Below are positions 526 to 37,161 of a stretch of 37,371 bases of DNA, piece after piece. Origin of the DNA: a virus. The stretch is taken from positions 1-37,371 of the IMG/VR virus record IMGVR_UViG_3300036857_000068. One strand, written 5' to 3'. How positions within the stretch are numbered: the first letter of the stretch is position 1; each line of letters opens with the position of its first letter. The notes beneath the pieces are model-generated. The model worked only from the letters and a program-made list of their open reading frames with translations, was not told where the DNA came from and searched no databases. The translations under genes and the position numbers were made by a program.

Positions 526-725
526 GCACCAAAACGGTCAACCCCGGCCGTTGGCTCGCTTTTGACGCGGAGCTCGAGCTCGTCGACGTCGACGGTTTCG
601 TGCCGCTTGTCGTCGACCGTGAGAGCGGCGAATCAGTCACTTTGGCTGGCCTGCTCTTGTCGTTCGTCGAGGACCTTGCCGACAGCTACGTCGGCCGCGT
701 TCGTATCAGCATCGAAGCGCTTTAA
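522..725 (+). CDS. Hypothetical protein, 67 aa
   Basis: It starts at ATG 522, overlapping the previous stop by four bases. The product begins MSTKTVNPGRWLAFDAELEL and is acidic and compact, with a VDGFVPLVVDRESG segment and a C-terminal amphipathic stretch. A longer reading of the frame from 339 gives an arginine-rich shadow and was not used. No family was recognised. The excisionase-like gene follows 10 bases later. Confidence 0.65.
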   Translation: MSTKTVNPGRWLAFDAELELVDVDGFVPLVVDRESGESVTLAGLLLSFVEDLADSYVGRVRISIEAL

Positions 726-735
726 GGGGGAAGGC

Positions 736-1050
736 ATGGCAGGCGTTGAGTCGCTCGAGGGCTACGCGCACGAGCGCAAGCGAGCCGAGGTGCTACGCCG
801 GGCCGCGACTGCGACGCGCGAGCGAGCCCGCAACCTGCAGCGCGCGAGGGGCAGCCGCACCGCGTCGCGCGACCGCGACTACCTCACGCGCGAGGAAGTG
901 GCCGACCGAGCTCGCGTCAGCCTCCGGACCGTCGAGCGCGCGCTCGCCTCGAACGAGCTCGAGCACTACGGCGGCAACGGCTACCGCGTGCAGGTCACTC
1001 CGGAGCAATGCGACCGGTGGATCGAGCAGCGCGGCCGGTCGGCCGCGTAA
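736..1050 (+). CDS. Excisionase-like HTH protein (Xis/MerR-type)
   Basis: The 104-aa product starts at ATG 736 after a good ribosome site (AAGGGGGAAG). Residues 1-45 are basic and helical. The C-terminal half is a winged HTH of the excisionase type: YLTREEVADRARVSLRTVER followed by a recognition segment and a wing (YGGNGYRVQVTPEQCDRWI). Such small proteins bend attachment-site DNA and steer integrase towards excision. Placement directly upstream of the integrase agrees. It could instead be a transcription regulator of the same fold. An upstream overlapping frame (from 562) is a shadow. Confidence 0.8.
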   Translation: MAGVESLEGYAHERKRAEVLRRAATATRERARNLQRARGSRTASRDRDYLTREEVADRARVSLRTVERALASNELEHYGGNGYRVQVTPEQCDRWIEQRGRSAA

Positions 1051-8251: not shown

Positions 8252-9336
8252 CCGTCGTCCCTTACACCGGCACGACCGCGACGACGCTCGAGCCGCAGAA
8301 CCTCGACGACGCGATGCGGCTCGCCGAGTTCGTGGCAAACACGGACTTTGTGCCGAAGAACCTGCGCGGCAACCCGCCCGCGATCCTCGCCGCGATCCTG
8401 TACGGCCGCGAGGTCGGGCTCGGCTCGATGCAGTCGCTCGCCAAGATCAGCGTCATCGAGGGGCGGCCGACGCTCGCGGCCGAGTCGCAGCGCGCGTTGA
8501 TCCTCGCCGCCGGGCACGAGCTCGTCGTCGAAGAGTCGACCTCGACCCGGTGCACGATCCGCGGCCGCCGCCGCAACGAGCGCCACTCGACGTCCGTCAC
8601 GTGGACGCTCGACGACGCGAAACGCGCGAACCTCGTCGGGAAGCAGAATTGGAGGCAGTACCCGGCCGACATGCTCGCCGCCCGCGCGCTCGCCCGGCTC
8701 GCCCGGCTCGTGTTCGCCGACGTCATCGGCGGGCTCGCCGCAACCGAGGAAGCGCTCGAGGGCGGCGACCCCGAGCCGACCGTCGAGCGGCCGGCCTCGA
8801 CACCGACCACGACGCGCCGTCGACGCGCCGTGCAGGCCGTACCCGAGCCCGAGCCTGCTCCCGCCGCAGAGCCGGAAGCAGATCCCGAGCCCGAGCCCGG
8901 CCACGCCGCCGACGACGTACCCGCCGACGATCCCCACGAACCGCCGGCGCCGATGCCGGCGCCCGAGCCGGCGCGCATGAACGCCGCCACACGCGGCAAG
9001 CTTTTCGCGCTGTTCGGCGAGCGCGGCATGGGCGGCAAAAGCGATGCCGACCGCACCCGCCGCCTCGAGTACGCGCGGCACGTGCTCGGCCGCGACGTCG
9101 CATCCTCGACCGAGCTCACCGCGGTCGACGCCTCGAGACTCATCGAGCAACTCGAGCGCGACCTGCCCGACCCGGTCGTCGACGCGCTCAACGCGCACCT
9201 CGACGCCGAGGCCGCCGAGGCCGCCGCCGGCGACGATGACCAGGCGCGCGACCTCGAGCGCGAGCTCGACACGATCCGCCACGACGAAACCAGACCCGCG
9301 CCCGAGCCGGGCGAGGACGGCGAGCCGACCGCGTAG
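8248..9336 (+). CDS. RecT-like ssDNA-annealing protein
   Basis: The 362-aa product starts at ATG 8248. Residues 1-160 resemble phage RecT-type recombinases: NLRGNPPAILAAILYGREVG, a QSLAKISVIEGRPTLAAESQ segment, and WRQYPADMLAARALARL. A low-complexity Pro/Glu/Ala linker (about 175-245) follows. A C-terminal helical domain (AATRGKLFALFGERGMGGKS) is also seen in other phage proteins of this type. The protein would anneal complementary strands and work with the Cas4-like nuclease upstream. Confidence 0.72.
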   Translation: MTVVPYTGTTATTLEPQNLDDAMRLAEFVANTDFVPKNLRGNPPAILAAILYGREVGLGSMQSLAKISVIEGRPTLAAESQRALILAAGHELVVEESTSTRCTIRGRRRNERHSTSVTWTLDDAKRANLVGKQNWRQYPADMLAARALARLARLVFADVIGGLAATEEALEGGDPEPTVERPASTPTTTRRRRAVQAVPEPEPAPAAEPEADPEPEPGHAADDVPADDPHEPPAPMPAPEPARMNAATRGKLFALFGERGMGGKSDADRTRRLEYARHVLGRDVASSTELTAVDASRLIEQLERDLPDPVVDALNAHLDAEAAEAAAGDDDQARDLERELDTIRHDETRPAPEPGEDGEPTA

Positions 9337-9341
9337 ACCAC

Positions 9342-9653
9342 GTGCACTACACCGGCCCGGACCACGCCGACCCGTTCATCGCCGGCCGCGACGAGCTCCT
9401 GCTCCGCTGGCTCGACGAGCTCGCCGTCGACGTCGGCCGCATGCGCCGCCGCCTCGAGGGATCGCTCGCGCACCTCGGCGACCGGATCGCCGACACGATC
9501 GAGACGCTCGACGCGATCGTCCACCCGACCGCGAGCGAGCTCCTACACCGGCTCGACTACACGCCGCTCGCCCGCGACGTCGACGCCGCGCTCAACGCGC
9601 GCGACGCACGCACACGCGAGCTCCACCGCCTACTCGGAAAGGGACAGCGATGA
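9342..9653 (+). CDS. Hypothetical protein, 103 aa
   Basis: It starts at GTG 9342, five bases after the RecT-like stop. The product is helical and charged (ELLLRWLDELAVDVGRMRRR) and its end is basic. No family was recognised. Its stop overlaps the ATPase ATG by four bases, so the two are coupled and may be partners. Confidence 0.6.
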   Translation: MHYTGPDHADPFIAGRDELLLRWLDELAVDVGRMRRRLEGSLAHLGDRIADTIETLDAIVHPTASELLHRLDYTPLARDVDAALNARDARTRELHRLLGKGQR

Positions 9654-10930
9654 GCGACCTCGCCGGCGAGCTCGCCGCCCGCGCCCGGTTCGCCGTCGAG
9701 GCCGACGAGTTCCGCGCGCTCGACGTCGGGCAACGGCCGCCGCTGCTCGGCAGGAACGGCGACACGATCCTCCCCGCGGGCGGGCTCGTCGTCGTCGCCG
9801 GACAACCCGGCGTCGGCAAAACAACGCTACTCGTCGACCTCGTCTACCACCTCGCCTCCGGGATCGACTGGCTCGGCATCCCCTGCCCGCGCCCGCTCTC
9901 CGTGCTCCTAATCGAGAACGAAGGGCCGCAAGACCTGTTCGCAGCCAAGATCGACGCGAAAGCGACCGCGTGGCCGCACGACCGGCCCGGACGCGTATGG
10001 GTCAAGACGTGGCACTGGGGCACGTTCAACCTCACCGACCGCGACGACCGCGGCGAGCTCGTCACGTTCCTCCGCGAGCACCCCGTCGACGCGATCGTCG
10101 GCGACCCACTCGGCTCGCTCGGCCCGGCCGGCGTCGGATCACCCGAGGACACCCGCCGATTCGTCGGGCAGCTATACGAGCTCGAGCTCGACGTCGCCTA
10201 CATCTTCGTCCACCACTTCCGCAAGGAACCGATCGCCTCCGAGGTCGACCAGCTATCCGGCGCGTGGGCCGGCCACCTCGACACGCTCATGCTCCTGAAG
10301 CCGACCCGCCGCAAGAACGAGGTCCGGCTCTCGTTCCCGAAAACCCGGTGGGCCGAGCAGGCCTCGCACGCGCCGCTCATCCTCGGCTACGTCCGCGCGA
10401 CGCAAGGGTTCGACGTGCTCGGCGAAGAGGGCGACCCGAAGCTGCTCGAGGCGACGCTCGTCGAGCTCCTCGAGGCGCAGACGTACCGGACGCCGTCCGA
10501 GCTCGCCAAGGACGCCGGCGCCAGACGCACGACCGTCGAGGCGTGCCTCACCGGCAACGCGCACCTCTTCACGTCCGTCGCGGGCGCCGACGTCGGCCGA
10601 ACACGCGCGAAAACCGTCTGGCAGCTTGTCCCGGACGCCGAGGGGCTCGGACAAGCAGCGGGACAAGCTGCGGCACCGCATGGTTACGCCAACTCGCCCG
10701 CGAGCGCGACGCTGTTCGACGCGGGACAAGCTGCGGGACAAGCTCAGGGGGGCTCGAACCCGGATTTGCTTGTCCCGCGGTTCGGGACAAGCGGGACAAG
10801 CTCAGCCGGATTTGGCTCAACCAGGGAGTCTGTGAGCCTGTCCCGCTCGCTCTCCCCCTGTAAGGGGGAGGGAGAGCAGGCGGGATCAGGCACGCACCCT
10901 GCAGACATTGAAAGCGACGACCTCTGGTGA
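9650..10930 (+). CDS. RepA/AAA_25-type replicative ATPase
   Basis: The 426-aa product starts at ATG 9650. A RecA-fold ATPase core is clear: Walker A GQPGVGKTT (residues 51-59), the strand LLIENEG, and a Walker B-like DAIVGDPLGSL (D153). This matches RepA-like helicases and AAA_25 proteins of phages and plasmids. Residues 270-320 form a winged-helix-like region (RTPSELAKDAGARRTTVEAC). The last 100 residues are a Gly/Ala/Gln/Ser-rich linker whose DNA carries repeated GGGACAAGC boxes. It is probably the replication initiator or helicase. Confidence 0.82.
   Translation: MSDLAGELAARARFAVEADEFRALDVGQRPPLLGRNGDTILPAGGLVVVAGQPGVGKTTLLVDLVYHLASGIDWLGIPCPRPLSVLLIENEGPQDLFAAKIDAKATAWPHDRPGRVWVKTWHWGTFNLTDRDDRGELVTFLREHPVDAIVGDPLGSLGPAGVGSPEDTRRFVGQLYELELDVAYIFVHHFRKEPIASEVDQLSGAWAGHLDTLMLLKPTRRKNEVRLSFPKTRWAEQASHAPLILGYVRATQGFDVLGEEGDPKLLEATLVELLEAQTYRTPSELAKDAGARRTTVEACLTGNAHLFTSVAGADVGRTRAKTVWQLVPDAEGLGQAAGQAAAPHGYANSPASATLFDAGQAAGQAQGGSNPDLLVPRFGTSGTSSAGFGSTRESVSLSRSLSPCKGEGEQAGSGTHPADIESDDLW
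10623..10844. repeat. GGGACAAGC iterons, candidate replication origin
   Basis: About nine copies of GGGACAAGC(T) lie in the 3' end of the ATPase gene. Forward copies start at 10648 (one mismatch), 10660, 10723, 10735, 10784 and 10793. Reverse copies are at 10623-10632, 10767-10776 and 10835-10844 (one mismatch). Several neighbours are 12 or 9 bp apart. They encode a low-complexity linker, so the DNA rather than the protein appears to be conserved. The layout recalls the lambda O gene, where iterons lie inside the initiator gene. Confidence 0.7.
10852..10870. other. C/G-run hairpin at end of ATPase gene
   Basis: CTCCCCC (10852-10858) pairs with GGGGGAG (10864-10870) around a TGTAA loop. Outer GCTC/GAGC bases can extend the stem. 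It lies just after the iterons and 57 bases before the ATPase gene ends. It may be an origin structure or a processing site. Confidence 0.5.
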
Positions 10931-11364
10931 ACGAGGTCGCATTCACGGTCGACGGGACCCCGGTCCCTCAAGGCTCGAAACGCGTCGTGCCCACCGCTCG
11001 AGGCCACCGCTCCGTCGAGACGAACGAGCGCACGCTCAACCCGTGGCGCAACGCCGTCACCGGCGCCGCCGCTCGAGCGATGGGCGGACGCGTGCCGATG
11101 GCCGGGCCGGTCCGGGTCGACGCGACGTTCGTGCACCCGAGGCCTCGCTCCCACTTCGGCACCGGCCGCAACGCCGGCCAGTTGAAGAGCTCGGCGCCCG
11201 TCTACTGCTCGACGCGGCCGGACGTCGACAAGCTGCTCCGGGCGATCCTCGACTCGATCACCGGCGTCGTGGTGATCGACGACGGGCAGGTCGTCGAGCT
11301 CGTCGCCCGCAAGCACTACGGGTCGCCGGCCGCGCACATCACCGTCACGAGGCTCGCCGGATGA
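10927..11364 (+). CDS. rusA: RusA-like Holliday junction resolvase
   Basis: The 145-aa product starts at GTG 10927, overlapping the ATPase stop. RusA features are visible: an N-terminal GTPVPQGSKR strand-turn, the acidic cluster RPDVDKLLRAILDSI (D99, D101, K102, D109) and VVVIDDGQVVEL (D118, D119). RusA enzymes cut four-way junctions as homodimers and are common in phage recombination modules. Its place after the ATPase fits resolution of replication intermediates before packaging. Confidence 0.9.
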   Translation: MNEVAFTVDGTPVPQGSKRVVPTARGHRSVETNERTLNPWRNAVTGAAARAMGGRVPMAGPVRVDATFVHPRPRSHFGTGRNAGQLKSSAPVYCSTRPDVDKLLRAILDSITGVVVIDDGQVVELVARKHYGSPAAHITVTRLAG

Positions 11365-11663
11365 GCGAGCGTCGCACCGAGCACGTCGGCGAACGCCGCG
11401 TCGAGATTCTCGAGGTGCGATGGGTCGACAGCGTCGGCGCGCAGGGATGGCAGACGATCGACGAGGCGCGCCGCGACGCCGAGGCCGACGACATGGTGCA
11501 CCGCTCCGTCGGGTGGCTCATCGCCGATGAGCCCGAGTACGTGCTGCTCGCGCTCTCCCGCCGCGACTCGTGGCGGTACGTCGACCTCACGCTGCAGATA
11601 CCGCGCGGCGCCATCGTCGGCACGCGCATCCTCCGACGAGGGAAGGGGCCGCCCGATGAGTAA
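11361..11663 (+). CDS. Hypothetical protein, 100 aa
   Basis: It starts at ATG 11361 (ATGA with the rusA stop). The alpha/beta composition (RVEILEVRWVDSVGAQGWQT, then YVLLALSRRDSWRYVDLTLQ) and length fit a small ssDNA- or protein-binding phage factor. No family was recognised. The stop lies eight bases inside the next gene. Confidence 0.65.
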   Translation: MSERRTEHVGERRVEILEVRWVDSVGAQGWQTIDEARRDAEADDMVHRSVGWLIADEPEYVLLALSRRDSWRYVDLTLQIPRGAIVGTRILRRGKGPPDE

Positions 11664-13296: not shown

Positions 13297-13676
13297 AGCC
13301 GGGCGCCTACAGCCTCGAGCTCTACCGGGGCGACAGCTTCGAGACTGACGTCCGAGTGTGGCTCGACGCCGGCAAGACTCAGCCGGCCGACCTCACGGGT
13401 GTCGAGGCGAAAGCGGAGGTGCGTGACAAGTCGGCGGGCTCGACGATCATCGAGCTCCGGGTGTCGATCACGGGGAACACGATCACGCTCAAGGTCGAGC
13501 CGGACGATTGGGACGCGTGGACACTGGCGCGCGGCGTGTGGGACCTGCAACTGACGTATCCGGATGCGAGTGTGCAGACGATTCTCGCCGGCAATGTCGC
13601 CGTGATTCCGGACGTCACTGATTCGTCGCCGTTGTCGACGATGATTGCGGGTCAGTCGGTTCGCAAGGTGGCATGA
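13293..13676 (+). CDS. Baseplate/fibre-associated beta domain protein
   Basis: The 127-aa product starts at GTG 13293. It is beta-rich and begins with [20 protein letters not shown] followed by [19 protein letters not shown]. This resembles the N-terminal domain of phage baseplate upper proteins and similar Ig-like fibre-attachment domains (a strand, then 'DLTG', then 'A.vR'). It may connect the collagen-like fibre encoded next to the virion. The family match is by pattern only. Confidence 0.6.
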
Positions 13677-15442
13677 GCGAGGTCGTCGACGTGATGGTCG
13701 ATGCGGCCGAGCTCGTCGACGTGATTGAGGGGTCGTCGGTCGTCGTCGATGTTGAGCCGCAGGGGCCGGTCGTGGTCGATATCTCGGACGTGGCGGGGCC
13801 GCCGGGTATGCAGGGGCCGCCGGGGCCGGCGGGGCCGCAGGGGCCGCAGGGTGCGCCCGGCCCGGACGGCGCGCAGGGTGTGCAGGGGCCGGCGGGCGTC
13901 GACGGGGCGACTGGCGCGGAGGGGCCGGCGGGGCCGGCGGGAGCGGATGGAGCTCCGGGCGCGACGGGGCCGGCTGGGCCGCAGGGCGACGTCGGCCCGC
14001 AGGGCGCGCAGGGTGTGCAGGGGCCGCAGGGTGATCCGGGTCCGATCGGCCCGGAGGGGCCGCAAGGGCCGGCGGGCGCGGGCGCCGTCACCTACGCCTA
14101 CATGTTCGAGTCGACGCCGAGCGAACCGCCGACCGGGAGCGAGATTCGGTTCGACAACGCGACTGTGACGCTCGTCACTCGAGTGTGGATTCGGAACGTC
14201 ACCGCCGACGGCAACGACGTGCACAACGCGCTACTCTCGTTGCCGAACGCCGGGTCGATGCTGTACGTGCAGGACGAGGACGACTCGACGCGTTACGTCC
14301 GGTTCGATGTGACGGGCGACCCGGTCGATAAGACGAGCTACGTCGAAGTGCCGGTGCACTACGTGAGCTCGCAGGGCACGCTTCCCGAGCAGCGTGTGCA
14401 GGTCGTGTTCGCCGTGGCCGGGATCGCGGGGCCGGTGGGGCCGCCCGGACCGCAGGGGCCGACGGGGGCGCAGGGCGCGACCGGTGCGACGGGGGCGCAG
14501 GGGCCGGCGGGTCCCGCGGGCGCCGACGGGGCGACCGGGGCGACCGGAGCGACCGGGCCGCAGGGGCCGCAGGGCGACACCGGCGCGACCGGCTCGCAGG
14601 GGCCGGCGGGCTCGCAGGGTGTGCAGGGGCCGGCGGGTGTGCAGGGGCCGACGGGCCCGGCGGGCGCGAGCGGCGACGCGTGGGTCTACGGGACGGGCGC
14701 GCCGGCCGTGTCTGCCGATCCGATCGGGACGCTGTACCTCGACGGCGCCAATGGGAACGTGTGGGAACAGCAGGCCTCCGGATGGGTGTTCACCGGCATC
14801 ACGATCAAGGGGCCGATCGGCGCGACGGGGGCGCCCGGCTATCCGAGCACGAGCGGGCACGAGGCCGACGTGCTCACCGTGTCGGGCGGCGTGCCCGTGT
14901 GGGCCGACCCGGCCGCCGCGCCGAGCTACGGGACCAGCTTCCCGGCCTCGCCGGTCGACGGGCAGGAGCACGTGCTCGTCGACTCTGTGACGAACCCGAC
15001 CTATCAGTGGCGGTTCCGGTACAACGCTGGCTCGAGCTCCGCGTACAAGTGGGAGCTCATCGGCGGCACCGACGCGCGGGCGAGCGTGATGGGCAACGAC
15101 ACGACCACGACGACGAGCTCGTGGCTGAACCTCGGCACGGGGCCGACGTTCACGGTGCCGCGTGCCGGCGACTACTACGTCCGATGGGGCGTCGACATGA
15201 CTCACTCGGCCGCCGGCGGGCAGGGGGTCGCGGGGATCGCGCTCGGCGACGGCGTGCCGGCCGAGCCGACCGTGTGGCACAACGTCGCCGCCAATGGCTA
15301 CCGCGGCCCGAGCTCCGCTGAGACGTTCTATGCGGCCGTCGCCGCGGCGACCGTGCTCAAGATGCGATTCAACAACCAGTCCGGCGGGACGCTCACCGTC
15401 TCGAGGCGCTACATGGCCGTGCTCCCCTACCGCGTCTCGTGA
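13673..15442 (+). CDS. Collagen-like tail fibre
   Basis: The 589-aa product starts at ATG 13673 (ATGA). Two Gly-X-Y collagen-like blocks lie at about residues 42-138 and 252-333. A beta domain of about 110 residues separates them, and a C-terminal region (about 340-589) contains a likely trimeric head. Such fibres form long triple-stranded stalks and bind the host surface. The GXY blocks make the DNA look like a repeat array, but it is coding. Fibre genes usually follow the tail genes; here they lie before the terminase. Confidence 0.85.
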
Positions 15443-35900: not shown

Positions 35901-36853
<953 letters not shown>

Positions 36854-37161
36854 GCCGCTTTCCCCTTCCCCCATGGCGCCGGGGCCGCTCGAGCTCGAAC
36901 GTGGAGGGGCCGCAGGGAGAGTGTGTGCGAGCGCCGGGCGTCCGGCCGCAGGTCGCTCCGCGCTACATCCGGTCGCTCCCCATGGCGGGCAAGTAAAGCA
37001 GACCCGTACGGCGGCCGCACACATGCGTACACGTGGGCGCCCGGAGCGGGTTCGTCGCGGTCCCCGGCGCCGTCGAGTTAGCCGGACCTAACCGTCGTGC
37101 CTGTCAACACATCGGGATTCGAACCGGTAGTAGTTTTCGGAATGCTTTAACGTGCAACACA
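36854..37161. other. Divergent regulatory region
   Basis: No gene is seen between the minus-strand HTH start and the plus-strand HTH start at 37162. A perfect TTGACA lies on the minus strand at 37107-37102, but no good -10 follows at the usual distance. The 12-mer ACACGTGGGCGC at 37029-37040 recurs at 26-37 (and 37265-37276). A GGGATTCGAACC stretch near 37114 resembles a tRNA T-arm, but no tRNA could be built. This is the expected place for a lysogeny switch. Confidence 0.5.

Follow-up and report, generated by a model that had tools for sequence, protein, structure and literature searches.

A predicted iteron-type replication origin in the 3′ end of a phage RepA-like helicase gene

The complete 37,371-base virus record IMGVR_UViG_3300036857_000068 (hereafter the window) contains a cluster of short repeats with an adjoining palindrome (positions 10624-10891) that is very likely the replication origin of the phage, lying within the 3′ end of the gene for its own helicase. 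This prediction is based on the position at a helicase gene, the form of the repeats, the palindrome, and the recurrence of such arrays beside replication genes. The initial annotation had proposed an iteron-type origin inside a RepA/AAA_25-type gene, a proposal that the conserved arrays at repA 3′ ends described below support as a prediction. The repeat exceeds chance and lies in cis, inside the replication gene, and at family level the array is kept in place in relatives.

Integrase, exonuclease, RecT, RusA, terminase and portal genes found in Pfam and PHROGs ORF scans indicate that the window probably derives from a temperate tailed phage, which appears to infect a GC-rich bacterium. Two ORFs near opposite ends of the window (562-1050, plus strand; 36455-37024, minus strand) each match the excisionase/regulator family phrog_66, and positions 13673-15442 encode a 589-aa collagen-repeat tail fibre-like protein (Pfam Collagen E 1.5e-26; PHROGs tail fibre).

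The box array and its helicase gene

The 10-mer CGGGACAAGC occurs in seven exact copies in 37 kb, all within 10624-10801, against an expectation of 0.10. At most two copies arose in 100 dinucleotide shuffles of the window, and the maximum was again two in 2000 synonymous-codon randomisations of the repA-like gene. Nine boxes in both orientations can be distinguished, comprising seven exact copies of GGGACAAGC and two one-mismatch copies. The exact boxes lie on the plus strand at 10660-10668, 10723-10731, 10735-10743, 10784-10792 and 10793-10801, and on the minus strand at 10624-10632 and 10768-10776; the one-mismatch copies are CGGACAAGC at 10648-10656 (plus) and GGGACAGGC at 10836-10844 (minus). 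Spacings are 12 bp between the boxes at 10648 and 10660, 12 bp between those at 10723 and 10735, and 9 bp between those at 10784 and 10793, so that the earlier count of about nine boxes in both orientations with 9- and 12-bp steps was borne out. Their assignment to a linker-coding part of the gene had to be corrected: they lie in the part encoding the RepA C-terminal tail, not between domains. If one mismatch is permitted, the 9-mer by itself turns up 18 times in the window where 9 are expected and is then not very rare, so that the signal comes from the exact copies and from their clustering.

Translated, the boxes read AGQA, GTSG, LLVP or SLSR according to phase and strand. They fall into three codon phases, with the box at 10793 in a phase unlike that of the earlier plus-strand boxes. 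Since several phases and both orientations are used, the repetition is one of DNA rather than of peptide, and selection or copying has acted on the DNA of the boxes.

The C/G-run hairpin reported near the boxes was also confirmed. It is the palindrome CTCCCCCTGTAAGGGGGAG at 10852-10870, 3′ of the array, with C5/G5 runs, a stem of 8 and the core T-GTA-A, which resembles the CTTAAG-, CTATAG- and CTTTAG-core palindromes of relatives. It is nested in a longer imperfect palindrome (10836-10891) that has the last box as its left foot and a degenerate inverse box at the other, and whose predicted DNA fold gives z-scores of about −4.9 and −5.0 for the two strands.

The repA-like gene (9650-10930, plus strand) encodes 426 aa with an AAA_25 RecA-fold ATPase domain at residues 26-193 (Pfam E 2.8e-25; Walker A GQPGVGKTT). 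In an AlphaFold2 model, the best solved-structure match of the ATPase core was RSF1010 RepA (1g8y; Z 19.0, rmsd 2.6, 205 residues), nearly tied with the Twinkle and DnaB helicases (Z about 18), which confirms the earlier RepA/AAA_25 assignment. Judged by this model, the protein is of the RSF1010 RepA/DnaB-like hexameric helicase class, with a putative hexamer and putative 5′-3′ activity. Its named PHROGs matches are helicases or helicase-primases only, and Pfam and PHROGs revealed no primase domain in it.

Behind the ATPase domain follow an HTH-like segment (residues about 262-328) and a low-complexity tail (residues about 329-426), the latter encoded by the box-bearing DNA. The segment was modelled as helix-helix-strand-strand at low confidence and matched neither an HTH family nor, in its poor model, a solved fold, which leaves a winged helix between ATPase and tail plausible. 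The C-terminal piece folded separately likewise gave a poor model and no matches. The AlphaFold2 model (alignment A3) is good for the ATPase core only, because the C-terminal domain of the relatives differs; another alignment of relatives (A1) was too diverse as a search query.

A 103-aa ORF (9342-9653, plus strand) lies 5′ of the repA-like gene; it has no family match, and no evidence for a role of its product was found. Directly 3′ lies a rusA-like resolvase gene (10927-11364, plus strand). Apart from the repA-like gene, the scanned ORFs of the window contained no recognisable replicative helicase or primase, and the window contains no Rfam family. Cumulative GC skew reaches its minimum at ~12-13 kb, which is compatible with an origin at the repA 3′ end but weak as an indication. 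No clearly AT-rich unwinding region was seen beside the boxes, where GC content shows no marked dip at the coarse resolution of 1000 bp.

Arrays at the ends of replication genes

Paired-box scans of viral contigs that ignored protein sequence led mainly to replication genes, encoding AAA_25 helicases, DUF1376, DnaD/O-like proteins, VapE (found in a genome scan) and primases. Noise in these motif-only scans came from plain GQ-rich low-complexity genes (L098, L059). We also selected 44 viral loci by RepA protein sequence, a set in which some bias remains since its three seed proteins were taken from motif hits. In nearly all of them, the most clustered 7-mer was GGGACA-like and located at the repA 3′ end. 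Counted from −500 to +700 around the stop codon, 39 of the 44 loci had at least five GGGACA boxes, and the density was 8.93/kb in this zone versus 0.36/kb elsewhere. The boxes of the relatives lie mostly beyond the repA stop codon and follow roughly the consensus AGCGGGACAA, with a usual spacing of 9-12 bp that the window matches.

In a mostly non-redundant set of 45 RepA loci, part of which had been chosen by motif or as named phages, the 7-mer cluster exceeded all 40 shuffles in 41, and a pyrimidine-arm palindrome with a T..A core was present in 22 (0.8 expected). In relatives the palindrome is found in the array or at its border, often between inverted boxes, and is not followed by T-runs. 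The comparison thus shows, at the level of sequence, that the array, often together with the palindrome, is conserved at the 3′ end across RepA genes.

Other RepA relatives carry different words at the same place, namely GCGTGACA, GGGAACCA, GGTCCAC, GAGCACAC, CACCGGA and CGTAACG. Rhizobium phages 16-3 and RHph_X2_25 have 12-14 GCGTGACA-type boxes directly 3′ of the gene, Salicola phage CGphi29 uses GGGGACA, and Roseobacter phage CRP-406 uses GGCTGGAA. The distant relatives L416, L347, L301 (Streptomyces aidingensis) and L402 have clear arrays of GGGAACCA, GGTCCAC, GAGCACAC and CGTAACG, accompanied in three of the four by a CTATAG-, CTTTAG- or CTTAAG-core palindrome. In phage 16-3 (L210:4098-4450), 12 CGTGACA boxes and a CACTCCTTTAGGAGTG palindrome directly follow gene p101; this long-known phage would be a good model for origin study.

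Closer homologues of the window RepA were reached through RusA and terminase scans. In two of them, L360 and L362, rusA follows the repA homologue as in the window. In the former, the gene tail contains CACCGGA-type boxes together with a GGGGGGTAC/GTACCCCCC palindrome, an arrangement like that of the window, and the latter has CCCGTTTTT boxes surrounding a CCTTAAGG palindrome; their 7-mer clusters are by themselves not above shuffles, so that these two loci lend support by anatomy more than by statistics. The best-scoring homologue found (L378, 34% identity) showed no clear array at the gene end. Relatives from Gordonia, Nocardia, Rhodococcus and Mycobacterium had no array at the gene 3′ end either, nor did the large actinophage primase-helicase-type relatives that were checked, so that the array rule applies to a part of the AAA_25 helicases. 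The expectation that boxes persist in relatives keeping the protein therefore holds at family level (39/44, with other words elsewhere) and gives a mixed result in the closer homologues, where L360 and L362 agree with it and L378 does not, as is also the case for Gordonia. Exact peptide scans detected no close relatives of the window RepA in viral contigs, genome contigs or plasmids, no close relatives were found in an actinobacterial phylum sample of 396 genomes (E 1e-15), and a scan seeded with L112 returned L112 alone.

Similar arrays were observed beside other replication genes. The DUF1376 replication genes selected by protein (L221-L300) often contain a box array within the gene, some 400-600 bp from the start of the match; about half of these arrays consist of GGGACA (roughly 5-13 copies), and others have GGCGGAA/GCCGGAA or GGGGCGA at the same place. 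GGGACA arrays also lie beside the unrelated replication proteins VapE, Prim-Pol/DUF3987, Toprim-type primase and a DnaD-like protein (L169:1959-2248, from an Arcanobacterium MAG; L042:3766-3895; L082:8451-8737; L045:5917-6082). One DUF1376 locus (L302:5120-5977) corresponds to ydaU of the Rac prophage in E. coli K-12 MG1655 (1421119-1421976), whose linker contains three GTTTGAACA/TGTTCAAACA boxes within 60 bp followed by the run GATCCCCCCCTAAATCCCCCCCGGGGGAATC, an anatomy like that of the window. Rac is said to carry the active origin oriJ (PMC3945230), for which the ydaU boxes are a candidate site.

Reading of the array and comparison with known systems

We propose that the window probably holds a self-contained iteron origin whose RepA combines the roles of origin binder and helicase; the identity of the box reader is less certain than the origin itself. 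RepA would bind the GGGACAAGC boxes, probably via the HTH-like segment after the ATPase domain. On the array, the bound molecules would form a ring, separate the strands of the duplex and load themselves onto it. The C/G-run palindrome that closes the array could then form a stem-loop on single strands and serve as a priming start or in fork set-up. This series of steps, from box binding through ring formation and unwinding to priming at the palindrome, is modelled on RSF1010 (IncQ), whose oriV resembles the window in combining iterons and stem-loops with a helicase of the same RecA-fold structural class. In RSF1010, the iterons are read by a separate protein, RepC, and the stem-loops (ssiA/ssiB) exposed by RepA serve priming (PMC4234260). 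Initiator, helicase and primase are thus separate there (RepC/RepA/RepB′), whereas in the window the helicase gene holds the array and its product may itself be the initiator.

The division of work among three proteins in RSF1010, with RepC reading the iterons for RepA (PMC4234260), also makes the most serious alternative conceivable: the array is the origin, but its boxes are read by a different protein, for instance a host factor or the product of the 9342 ORF, with the ATPase recruited there as helicase only. A common reader could explain why GGGACA occurs in unrelated initiator genes (DUF1376, DnaD-like, VapE, Prim-Pol/DUF3987), and the HTH segment of the window is unconfirmed by family or fold match. 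However, the array stays at the repA end whatever the neighbours, and its word changes by lineage while the place stays, which fits the adjacent protein and favours RepA itself as the box reader; in addition, the C-terminus of the Streptomyces RepA (L301) has weak HTH-family matches. We consider a separate reader possible but rather unlikely.

The helicase of phage P4 alpha belongs to superfamily SF3. P4 alpha unites a helicase and a winged-helix domain binding origin repeats in one protein (PMC4234260), a combination that may also apply to the window RepA. Unlike the window RepA, which has a RecA fold and no primase and does not join an SF3 helicase and a primase in one protein, P4 alpha includes a Toprim primase, and its helicase is from a different superfamily. 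ORF904 of plasmid pRN1 has a C-terminal winged helix and depends on a sequence and a stem-loop just 3′ of its gene (PMC4234260). Unlike the window protein, it is an SF3 helicase with a prim-pol domain, and its site lacks iterons.

Lambda O is not an ATPase and requires P and host DnaB. The lambda origin is located inside gene O (PMC7157519, which cites the position), and the initial annotation had drawn this parallel. In both phages the origin lies within a replication gene, but the window gene encodes the helicase itself and its product is neither O-like nor DnaD-like, so that the analogy is positional only. For the RepA prophages of mycobacteriophages Miko and Jeeves, an origin is suspected by the authors just upstream of or within repA (PMC7157519). 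These actinobacterial phages likewise encode a RepA; theirs is of the HTH plasmid type (320-350 aa), and no repeated motifs were found there. We found no description of a GGGACA/TGTCCC phage origin in the open-access papers searched; one match was a ribosome-binding-site table.

Partition sites and operators can likewise have short boxes clustered in both orientations, and the array could accordingly be a set of regulator operators or a partition or immunity site instead of an origin. This is improbable, given that the promoter scan detected no sigma-70-like promoter at 9300-11400, that the boxes lie at a gene 3′ end, that the window ORFs scanned include no ParA/ParB-like family, and that arrays track helicase or initiator genes across collections. 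A similarly small chance is left to the hairpin acting as an intrinsic terminator of transcription that has nothing to do with the boxes, as its strong GC stem near the gene end might suggest: no T-run follows it, the terminator scan does not list it, and in relatives the palindromes belong to the array, inside it or at its border, often have inverted boxes on either side and likewise lack T-runs. We rejected this reading on the missing T-run and the terminator scan. The low-complexity tail, the AGQA encoded by some repeats in one frame and the GQ-rich genes met in motif-only scans (L098, L059) could point to a coding Gly-Gln-Ala micro-repeat expanded by slippage without DNA function, but this peptide-level reading was rejected as scarcely credible because box phases and orientations differ, synonymous randomisation gave at most two copies, and relatives' boxes lie mostly after the stop codon.

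Implications for phage replication

Judged by the DNA of the loci compared, the same layout, a short-repeat cluster with a C/G hairpin at the helicase gene end, recurs in many unrelated phages with different words. AAA_25 RepA helicases are common in phages, with about 600 phage records matching one relative by tblastn, and their origins have rarely been marked so far. As a speculation that could well prove too broad, we suggest a type of phage replicon that is widespread and relies on a RecA-fold helicase of the RSF1010 RepA/DnaB-like kind. This helicase would be its own origin binder and would load itself, without a separate loader, on iterons in or after its own gene whose word evolves fast. 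Beside these iterons would lie a palindrome whose CTTAAG/CTATAG/CTTTAG-like core keeps reappearing in different lineages, since a shared factor would recognise it as a priming signal on single-stranded DNA.

Should the rule hold, an origin could be located from sequence by looking at the repA 3′ end for an array of boxes together with a C/G-run palindrome, making origins predictable and testable in phages for which none is known. It would further yield small replicons from which vectors for poorly tractable hosts could be built, and would allow a test of whether a DnaB-class helicase acts as its own initiator. The varying box words at a fixed place would give a natural series for the study of initiator-origin co-evolution.
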